Positions 38,704 through 49,045 of a stretch of 64,000 bases of DNA are shown here, in pieces. Within the stretch, counting starts at the first letter, position 1; each line of letters begins with the position of its first letter. The position numbers were made by a program, and so were the translations under genes. The stretch spans positions 2,108,001 to 2,172,000 of the forward strand of contig NZ_CP009501.1 of assembly GCF_000969885.1 (NCBI RefSeq), in the 5' to 3' direction. The notes below the pieces were generated by a model that saw only the letters and a list, made by a program, of their open reading frames with translations, had not been told where the DNA came from and searched no databases. The DNA is from Methanosarcina thermophila TM-1 (GTDB lineage Archaea; Halobacteriota; Methanosarcinia; Methanosarcinales; Methanosarcinaceae).

Positions 38704-38959
38704 ACTCTTTCTTTTTTAAAATTCCTGCAGAGATGTAGGATATAATATCCCAGGCTTTAAATTCAAGAATTTAATATAAAATCATCTTCTTGTCTTTTTA
38801 GGAAATAATTTGTAATTTATTCTTTAAATACCTCAAAATACAATAAAAATTACATTATTAATATTTAATTATTTTTTGATTTTAAAACATTTTCTGTGAA
38901 AACAACTTTTGTTAAGAAACAATTTTTCGTATAATTAATTTAAAATAACAATCGGGACA

Positions 38960-39250
38960 TTGTATAATATAACGGGAGCAAACAGGTCAAAGAGAGTGAG
39001 AAAATCGGTATGGTATGTGAGTAAAAGACTGTCTGGAAGGAGTTGATTCTACTCCGAGTATACTTGAGGGGGTATAGCTTGGAAGACGGCACAGATACGG
39101 AGAGAAATACAACTCTTTCTGGAGTTCCTCCTGTGTGCGATAAAAATGCCCGGAAAAGGTATATTCCATTCCGAAATAAACTTGATGGGAGTATATATTG
39201 GAGCGACTGTATTGGGGGCTACAGTAAGCAGGAATATACCTCTTCCGGCG
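38960..39250 (+). ncRNA. Candidate structured RNA, copy A (two tandem modules)
   Basis: The promoter-like upstream block gtataattaatttaaaata (38930-38947) is shared with copy C. The 3' module is: P1 CCGGAA-aa-GGTATATTCC (39152-39167) with GGAATATACC-tc-TTCCGG (39231-39248); P2 TTCCGAAATA/TATATTGGAG (39169-39178, 39194-39203) with apical TTGATGGGAG; P3 CTGTA/TACAG (39207-39211, 39220-39224) with loop TTGGGGGC. A 5' module at 39029-39089 has CTGTCT/AGACGG closing GGAGT-tgattct-ACTCC and TATAC-ttgagggg-GTATA. No ORF explains these pairings. Confidence 0.6.
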
Positions 39251-40107
39251 CTCCTTCAATCTTTTGTCAATAATCTTCTTTCCTTGTAAATAATCTTTTT
39301 TCCAGTATTATGATTCTAATTAATCAAACCTTAACCTGTAGTTAGAATTTTGTGCTCTTTTAAACTCTCAAATTCCTTTTTGAAGCCTTGCTATGCCTGC
39401 ACAGTTATAGCTTGCATAGATATATACACTTATAAATAGACAGGCAAATTCAAGAACTCTTTATTGTTTAGATTTTCTCTTCTTTCAATTTAATAAAAAT
39501 AGATTCTTTCTTTACTTTTTTAACTCTGCTTATTAATAAAAATGGTTCGAAATCCTTTATTTTCTAAAGGCGCTACCCAGTATAATGATTCTTCCGAGGA
39601 GATTTGTAAACACCTAAATTTGATCTTTTTATGACCTCGTAAAATAGGTCTAGTAAAACAGGTCTATATAAGTAACTCTGCCGATAAAGACATTTTTCAG
39701 CCATCTTTTAAGTTTTATTTATTTCTTCGTACCCTCCCATGAAAAGTTTCTTCATCGATAATTTTATAAATCACCTGTTTATATGATTTTAACCACAGTA
39801 AAGTATCATGATTAATTATTGATATATAGATCCTAACATATCCTGAAATTCAGGTATGGGACTGTATGTTGTCCTATACTTTTGCCTCAGGCTGAATTTT
39901 TAGGGAGTTGGATCTATCGACCCAGCCCTGTAAAATTGGCTGATTTTCCCATCAAAAAATAATTAAAGATATGTTGCTTTCACTCTGTTATGTTGACTTC
40001 TACATAACCTGATACATCGGATCCCTACACCTTTTGGCAGATTTTGCCCGAATTTTCGTATTTATCAGCGTTATGTTTGAATATATATAACGGTCAGATT
40101 CACGGCG
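39251..40107. other. Gene-free region upstream of the fmd operon, with hairpins
   Basis: About 850 bp, AT-rich. TATA-like gatatatag (about 39820-39829) precedes CCTGAAATTCAGG (39842-39854) and TATGGGAC-tgtatgtt-GTCCTATA (39855-39878). The fmd promoter proper is probably ATATATATAA at 40081-40090. No additional gene seen. Confidence 0.45.
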
Positions 40108-47445: not shown

Positions 47446-47518
47446 TAGTCCTGAGCGGATTCGAACCGCTGTCCCGGGCTCCAAAGGCCCGAAGGATTGA
47501 CCACTACCCTACAGGACT
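47446..47518 (-). tRNA. tRNA-Gln (anticodon TTG)
   Basis: A 73-nt cloverleaf on the minus strand. Acceptor AGTCCTG/CAGGACT, anticodon stem CGGGC/GCCCG around CTTTGGA (anticodon TTG), T-arm AGCGGTTCGAATCCGCT, discriminator A. No intron and no encoded CCA. Confidence 0.95.
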
Positions 47519-47819
47519 GCACGTTAAGGCTTTTACTTATAGATTAATTCATGTACTTAATTTTTGTGCCAGCTTGGGACTCTTTCGTTTTAATTTTTCC
47601 TACCGGCTCCTTTTCTCTATGTTTTCCATCTTTTCATTCTATATTTGCGCTTTGTATTAATTTTCCCTTTGTACTAATTTTCCTTTAAGATTCTCAATCT
47701 CTTTATATTTATGAGTACAGTTCTTTCACGGCTTTGAAATATTTTCTACCAGACTGTTTTTCGCTTGCAGGCAATTTTTCGGATAATAAATTTAAAATAA
47801 TTTATTTCATTACTATATT

Positions 47820-47985
47820 GTGGAGCGGAGAGAGAAAGGGTATGATCGAATAGCGAAGTAGTGGGTTGTGACAGAATTGCTCGGGAGCTGGTTGTTCTTG
47901 CTTCAGGATATGTTTGATGGGAGCAAATTCCGGAAGCGGCTGTAATGGGGGATACAGTAATGAACTAAATGCTCTCGGGCTTCTC
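47820..47985 (+). ncRNA. Candidate structured RNA, copy B
   Basis: Upstream block ggataataaatttaaaataa (47781-47800) resembles the promoter blocks of copies A and C. P1 GCTCGGGAGC (47879-47888) pairs with GCTCTCGGGC (47971-47980) using two G-U pairs. P2 GCTTCaGGA (47910-47918) pairs with TTCCGGAAGC (47928-47937), apical TTTGATGGGAGC. P3 CTGTA (47940-47944) and TACAG (47953-47957) close the loop ATGGGGGA, followed by TAATG. The adjacent 47986-48340 is AT-rich without a gene. Confidence 0.6.
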
Positions 47986-48344
47986 TTCTTACCAAGATCT
48001 CAAATCGTTAATAGTTTTAAATAATTTTATAATTTTAATTTCATTCTCTCTTTAATTTTAATAACTTTTTCTTAATTTTTCCTCTCTTAATAACGTTTTC
48101 TTGTTTTCATATAACGTTAACTTTTATTTTGAAATCTTAAAAAGTATTCTTTACTTTTTCCTATCTACTCCGCGTTCAAACCTCCTACTACTGGATTCTA
48201 TTTTGAAGGCTTATTAATCCCCGGTTAATGCTAAAAACTCGTTTAATCTGGAATTATGCTTCGATTTTAAAACTTTCTATGCGATAATATTTTTCGTTTG
48301 AAACTAATTTTTGATATAATTAATTTAAAATAATTACGGGGACA

Positions 48345-48520
48345 ATCATACATTGTAGTTGGGGAGACAGAACGAGTGAGTAAAAGGTATGAATAAGAGC
48401 ATGTAAAAAATCGCCCGAAAGCTTTGGTCCTGTTCTGAATATATGTATGGGGGAGCGTATCTTCAGAACAACCGTATCGGGGGCTGCGGTAATGGACATA
48501 AAGCTTTCGGGCTTTTTCTT
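48345..48520 (+). ncRNA. Candidate structured RNA, copy C, with terminator-like end
   Basis: TATA-like gatataattaatttaaaata lies at 48313-48332. P1 is a perfect 13-bp stem GCCCGAAAGCTTT (48413-48425) with AAAGCTTTCGGGC (48500-48512), followed by TTTTTCTT as in an intrinsic terminator. P2 GTTCTGAA/TTCAGAAC (48432-48439, 48462-48469) has the apical TATGGGGGAGC. P3 CCGTA/TGCGG (48472-48476, 48485-48489) has loop TCGGGGGC, followed by TAATG. The interval 48521-48756 shows nothing else. Confidence 0.65.
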
Positions 48521-48756
48521 ATTCTTTAATTTCCTCCTTTATTTCCTCCTTTAATGTGTGCTTTCTTTCCTCCTTTAATGTGTGCTTTCCTTATTTCTGC
48601 TATAATTCTATTAACGGCTTTTACCATATCTTATTAGAATTCTGTTTTACCGTATCTTATAGAATTCTGTAAAAGGTTTCGCTTCTAAATGGTATTTGTA
48701 GTCATCTCTCTTTATATGCAGTTTTCTATAAGCTTAAAAACCCATAATTTTCAAAT

Positions 48757-48948
48757 TCAATAGAATACAATTTTCGAAAACCCCTGAGACAGTTCTTCTC
48801 CCAGGAATTTTTCCACTTCCTTTTTGAGGTTTTCAATAGCTTCTTCGATGGTATTACCCTTGCAAATTATATCAGCCTCAGGACAGATTGAAACAAAGAA
48901 ATCTTGTTCCTGGCGGATGGTTGCAGAAAATGGAAACCAGATTGCCAC
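48757..48948 (-). CDS. Orphan HicB-family antitoxin-like protein
   Basis: A 63-residue HicB-like domain. The partial RNase-H-like fold pattern FPFSATIRQEQDFFVSICPEADIICKGNTIEEAIENLKKEVEKFL is clear. It lacks a C-terminal DNA-binding domain, and no HicA toxin (a short double-stranded-RNA-binding-like protein with catalytic His) is encoded on either side, so it is an orphan or works with a distant partner. The start is a GTG (48946-48948) without a strong ribosome-binding site. Confidence 0.75.
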   Translation of the reverse strand: MAIWFPFSATIRQEQDFFVSICPEADIICKGNTIEEAIENLKKEVEKFLGEELSQGFSKIVFY

Positions 48949-49045
48949 ACTTTAAAATATCTATCAGCCCACTTTTAAGGATTTCTGTTCTCCCTGTCCT
49001 TTAAAACGGTTTTCTTGCAAAATTTCTCCAAGCGCAGGAACTTTA

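Follow-up and report, generated by a model that had tools for sequence, protein, structure and literature searches.

A multicopy family of three-way-junction RNAs with G-rich loops in Methanosarcina, probably trans-acting small RNAs

Introduction

In proteobacteria, CsrB and CsrC, and RsmX, RsmY and RsmZ, are the products of multicopy small RNA (sRNA) genes and display short G-rich (GGA) motifs in hairpin loops; an upstream activation element is common to the Rsm genes. In archaea, the way in which an sRNA acts is known in few cases, and there are few descriptions of multicopy structured families that have a dedicated promoter in common. The 14 paralogous FopS sRNAs of Bacteroides thetaiotaomicron have identified targets and a protein antagonist (PMC11697453). 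In Methanosarcina mazei, sRNA162 and sRNA171 form a paralogous pair of ~190 nt with conserved promoters, three stem-loops, of which SL2 and SL3 are joined by a single-stranded linker of 39 nt, and an ArsR-family neighbour gene (PMC3510493). The M. mazei sRNA154, which is conserved in Methanosarcina, has been described with two loops (PMC5867862), and its promoter contains an NrpR operator, GGTA-N6-TACC (PMC3177094). The published sRNA41 masks ribosome-binding sites by sequence pairing.

Here we describe the structure, copy number, distribution, and constancy of loops and promoter of an RNA family encountered in a window of 64,000 nucleotides from the single-contig genome of Methanosarcina thermophila TM-1 (3,127,379 bp). 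We consider it probable, from the sequence evidence set out below, that two elements of this window, B and C, and a third locus, the A pair, are genes of a multicopy family of free-standing, trans-acting sRNAs of ~165 nt that are read from private promoters.

Relation to described RNAs

The family resembles the Csr/Rsm RNAs in being multicopy and in carrying a GGA-type motif in its loops, mostly UUGGGGGA or near variants, but this is a resemblance and not membership; the family is archaeal and has a single, fixed three-way junction that carries two loops. CsrA (PF02599) is absent from the source genome, whereas the control genomes scored positive, so that the family cannot belong to Csr and a strict CsrA-type decoy was rejected. 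With FopS it has in common the presence of multicopy paralogous sRNAs within one genome; FopS is trans-acting, and a relation of sequence or structure is not to be expected. The family is of the multicopy sRNA kind, in that a genome holds several structured paralogues and each of them has a promoter of its own.

Identity with the M. mazei RNAs was considered from their published descriptions. Neither the architecture of sRNA162/171 nor an ArsR-family neighbour was seen in the family, and sRNA154 is set apart by its published promoter, since GGTAN6TACC occurs in none of 102 copies within the 260 nt upstream that were searched. As regards sRNA41, likewise considered by description only, the G-rich loops of the family cannot pair to G-rich ribosome-binding sites.

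The first-pass annotation knew of no named family with this pattern. No such family scored above the Rfam 15 gathering threshold in the window, which together with its flanks gave only tRNAs; a scan at E<5 returned nothing at B and C beyond matches expected by chance. Nineteen other stretches holding copies likewise gave no family match; a separate eL15 leader was hit near one other copy. The literature searched, short of the original M. mazei transcriptome list, contained no description of the family. A family with this fold appears to be undescribed and uncatalogued, although individual M. mazei members may previously have been recorded as transcripts or sRNA candidates.

Structure of elements B and C

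B and C lie on the plus strand of the intergenic stretch between a tRNA-Gln (TTG) gene (47446–47518, minus strand; Rfam tRNA), which is divergent from the B locus and conserved as its neighbour, and a permease gene that begins at 49015 on the plus strand. The B core (47875–47984), supported by its fold and by covariation, scores 96.6 bits with our covariance model R1, and the C core (48409–48516) scores 98.5 bits. In both elements the fold consists, in order, of P1, a short P1b and two hairpins. P1 of B pairs 47879–47888 with 47971–47980 and encloses hairpins with the loops UGAUGGG (47915–47921) and UGGGGG (47946–47951), after which comes a U-rich end. P1 of C pairs 48413–48422 with 48503–48512, its loops are UGGGGG (48448–48453) and CGGGGG (48478–48483), and a U-run after the core extends to about 48520. 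The three-way junction proposed in the first-pass annotation is therefore present where it had been placed and folds as described. Folded at full length, C has a z-score of −4.6, whereas that of B is only −1.4.

The stems of B and C had also been said to covary with one another. P2 has three fully compensatory pairs and P3 has one; in P1 there is only a single fully compensatory pair, its remaining differences being wobble changes. Strong covariation becomes visible only once homologues are added and not from the comparison of B with C alone. A trailing TAATG, reported as persistent, is common to B and C but is not kept across the family.

Covariation and loops

An alignment of 38 sequences made by MAFFT from sequence only was given a 32-pair consensus by RNAalifold. 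In this alignment, 94.8% of cells are paired and 23 of the 32 pairs show two-sided changes, with covariation in every helix. Shuffled controls were 87.5% paired and controls with slid partners 34–50%, and none of 500 shuffles reached any of five measures; such controls model relatedness incompletely, the pair-count and pair-type measures being the robust ones according to the tool. When 102 distinct copies were aligned by fitting them to the covariance model, two-sided changes were present in 31 of the 32 pairs. The median folding z-score of the core over these 102 members is −4.7, and 88% lie below −3. The claim of paralogous structured RNAs whose stems covary while their G-rich loops are conserved is hence borne out across the genus, the sequence-only alignment surpassing every control.

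The commonest sequence in both loops is UUGGGGGA, found in 52 of the 102 copies at loop 1 and in 49 at loop 2; a further 18 copies have UCGGGGGC at loop 2, and the B type differs at loop 1, where it has UUGAUGGGA. When the copies are folded singly to minimum energy, independently of the model, 70 of the 102 form two hairpins whose loops contain GGG. That the stems vary while the loops stay points to the loops as candidate contact sites.

Distribution of the family

DNA searches of 31 Methanosarcina genomes detected relatives of B in 25 and of C in 20. The covariance-model search that the first-pass annotation had proposed, for which R1 was built from a starting alignment of 38 sequences by sequence only, found the family in all 31, with 251 matches as the sum of the per-genome rows and 1–21 per genome. 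Extended to the whole class, the R1 search was positive for 35 of 238 genomes, comprising all Methanosarcina and all four of one sister genus; the remaining 203 genomes of the class gave no copies. The family is thus specific to Methanosarcina and one sister genus among the genomes searched. Since its fold, its two G-rich loops and its private promoter have persisted while the stems changed, it is very probably a genus-wide family of regulatory RNAs.

The source genome holds 12 copies detected by R1, including the A pair at 39027–39255 of the window. Copy A of the first-pass annotation is indeed a family member, but it consists of two tandem units behind one promoter (38917–38948, plus strand; motif at 38930–38948 with no mismatches) and not of a single copy. 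The first unit (39027–39127, plus strand), in which the second hairpin is degenerate, scores 24.8 bits and the second (39144–39255, plus strand) 65.5 bits.

Promoter, leader and predicted transcript

B and C are alike over 70 nt of upstream sequence (repeat D2). The B promoter region (47733–47802, plus strand) contains the block TTTGAAATATTTTC...GGCAATTTTTCGGATAATAAATTTAAAATAATT and a TATAATTAATTTAAAATAA-like core at 47782–47800; the C region (48266–48335, plus strand) has the core TATAATTAATTTAAAATAA at 48315–48333. The TATA-like blocks noted earlier reflect real upstream conservation, but they belong to this larger promoter region, which starts ~85 bp before the RNA. Almost all copies have a conserved upstream region of the form TTTGAAAttTTT...AACAATTTTTGATATAATTAATTTAAAATAATTTA, then TATATTcTGGAGttGGgAAG, and the core motif occurs within four mismatches for 98 of 102 copies and within two for 80. 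There are 16 motif hits in the source genome: all seven with 0–1 mismatch precede family copies, and among those with two mismatches are three further copies and six sites at chance level. An extended motif, used to scan 84,980 species genomes, matched 59 stretches, of which 58 belong to Methanosarcina records and the other lies at a contig edge of a bacterial MAG. A viral origin was rejected; viral contigs contain one promoter-motif match, the downstream sequence of which is unlike the family on inspection. The private promoter, with AACAATTTTTGATATAATTAATTTAAAATAA for example as a candidate factor target, hints at a dedicated transcription factor or a choice of TBP/TFB for these RNA genes.

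Transcription of the family genes is presumed from these signals, with the RNA 5′ end predicted to lie ~25–30 nt past the promoter TTTAAAATAA. Measured from this putative start, the leader has a median length of 53 nt and is 71% purine and 9% C, so that leader and core would together make an RNA of ~165 nt. Guided by the leader alignment, we place the leaders of B, which is purine-rich and C-poor, at 47818–47874 (predicted start about 47820, from the TATA-to-start distance) and of C, also purine-rich, at 48354–48408 (start likewise predicted), both on the plus strand. A GGGTATGA-type motif is common to the two leaders (about 47838–47850 and 48388–48395), and stops in frame with it come very early.

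We looked among the paralogues for a conserved reading frame and found none. The elements might still be small mRNAs for a short protein, the structure being secondary: M. mazei sRNAs often contain small ORFs (PMC11456600), and the first hairpin of C-type copies contains an ATG that opens a short frame. This ORF, however, differs in frame and sequence among paralogues and is broken by indels, and the sequence changes follow base pairing; we regard the coding explanation as extremely improbable.

In the peatland MAGs bog_70 and fen_51 (L132, L133, L137, L139, L142, L155), the same promoter precedes a similar leader (AAAGCGAACAGAT...GAGTGAGGGA). Downstream there is no strong R1 match, and several of the sequences form a long hairpin of another kind (AATTTCGATAAACC...GGTTTATCGAAATT). 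The promoter–leader module may drive a second RNA class at these loci.

Genomic context

Of the 21 loci scanned, orthologous or related and with the sister genus included, 14 have the tRNA-Gln neighbour. In most genomes the B-type copies adjoin tRNA-Gln, at which the B locus is syntenic. Beside this tRNA gene are tandem arrays of 3–6 units, most with their own promoter, which suggests that the family grew by tandem duplication at the site and then dispersed. At one locus of the sister genus (L234), six tandem copies spaced ~400–600 bp apart follow tRNA-Gln, probably the ancestral arrangement. Other neighbours vary and include PRAI, rubrerythrin, a TPP enzyme, an RNA-binding protein and LysE.

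Multiple copies, both dispersed and tandem, several of them beside kinase paralogues in a way that suggests co-duplication, might be produced by a mobile or selfish repeat spreading through transposition or segmental duplication without host function. The neighbours have no transposase in common, however, and the synteny of the B locus also speaks against mobility. Moreover, that base pairs change in compensation while loops and promoter stay constant across the genus and its sister requires selection, and we judge a selfish origin to be very unlikely.

The kinases carry a HisKA_2 histidine-kinase domain, which lies within 2 kb of 4 of 10 independent loci in the source genome and 3 of 9 in a second genome, G001. 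In a test on these two genomes that was run after the pattern had been noticed, the p values for placement are 5e-5 and 1e-3, respectively, and those for rotation of the whole set are 7e-4 and 1.3e-3. In both genomes the proximity thus exceeds chance. Dispersed copies lie near PAS/MASE3-HisKA_2 genes at L124, L125 and L126 in the source genome, and at L228, L230, L231, L232, L134, L149 and L151. The kinase is often downstream of the copy on the same strand, 200–600 nt away. Co-duplication, a role in cis or a signalling link could each account for the proximity, which hints at signalling.

A cis-acting leader or attenuator, in which the element forms part of the next gene's 5′ region and governs read-through into that gene or its translation, would suit the copies ~150–600 nt upstream of same-strand HisKA_2 kinases (L126, L228, L230, L124, L134, L149, L034 and L151) and of a same-strand TPP-enzyme gene (L129), and P1 with its U-run could terminate transcription. 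Against it, the downstream genes differ among copies, B precedes C, C is followed by a gene on the opposite strand, copies near the PRAI and rubrerythrin genes face convergent genes, and most units of the tRNA-Gln arrays have a promoter each. Overall, we find cis control improbable.

Proposed function

We return to the trans-acting reading. Action in trans, probably through the loops, is favoured by the free-standing position of the genes, their private promoter, the lack of relation among most neighbours and the constancy of the loops; counting against it are the deviant loop 1 of the B type and the copies that lie upstream of kinases on the same strand. In the mechanism that we envisage, each gene would be read from its own promoter of common sequence to give a single-stranded, purine-rich leader followed by the three-way junction, with a U-run after P1. 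The two hairpins would each expose a UGGGGG-type loop, the stems serving as scaffold and the loops as working ends, and redundant copies, switched on together, would offer many identical G-loops.

What the loops would bind is a more tentative matter. A decoy that draws off an RNA-binding protein would fit the redundancy of copies in each of which one loop is shown two times, and it is quite possible that the G-loops sequester a putative archaeal protein by a logic of Csr/Rsm type. Our next guess, a possibility almost as likely, is that the loops pair as antisense with C-rich sites in mRNAs. Across the 31 genomes, TCCCCCAA occurs within 25 nt before an ATG ~1014 times against 693 in the reversed control, but many of these occurrences are the antisense strand of the elements themselves, so that the excess is uninformative. 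Pairing to the anti-SD sequence, suggested in the first-pass annotation along with C-rich targets, is not favoured, since the loop fits CCUCC only by means of G–U wobble. By analogy with Gac/Rsm, one may also imagine an archaeal global system in which co-regulated G-loop decoys with their own transcription signal, linked to HisKA_2 kinases, titrate a dedicated RNA-binding protein, though we think this unlikely in so complete a form. The family was found in every Methanosarcina genome searched, and the genus includes genetically tractable model species, in which partner, trigger and phenotype are directly testable.

Other features beside the copies

Immediately 3′ of the end of C, direct 12-bp repeats of the TTTCCTCCTTTA type occupy 48518–48588. 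A 63-aa ORF at 48757–48948 on the minus strand gave no Pfam match; it is HicB-like by eye and is conserved beside C-type copies in many genomes. At L105, an Rfam eL15-Euryarchaeota ribosomal leader (1164–1216) lies shortly downstream of another family copy.
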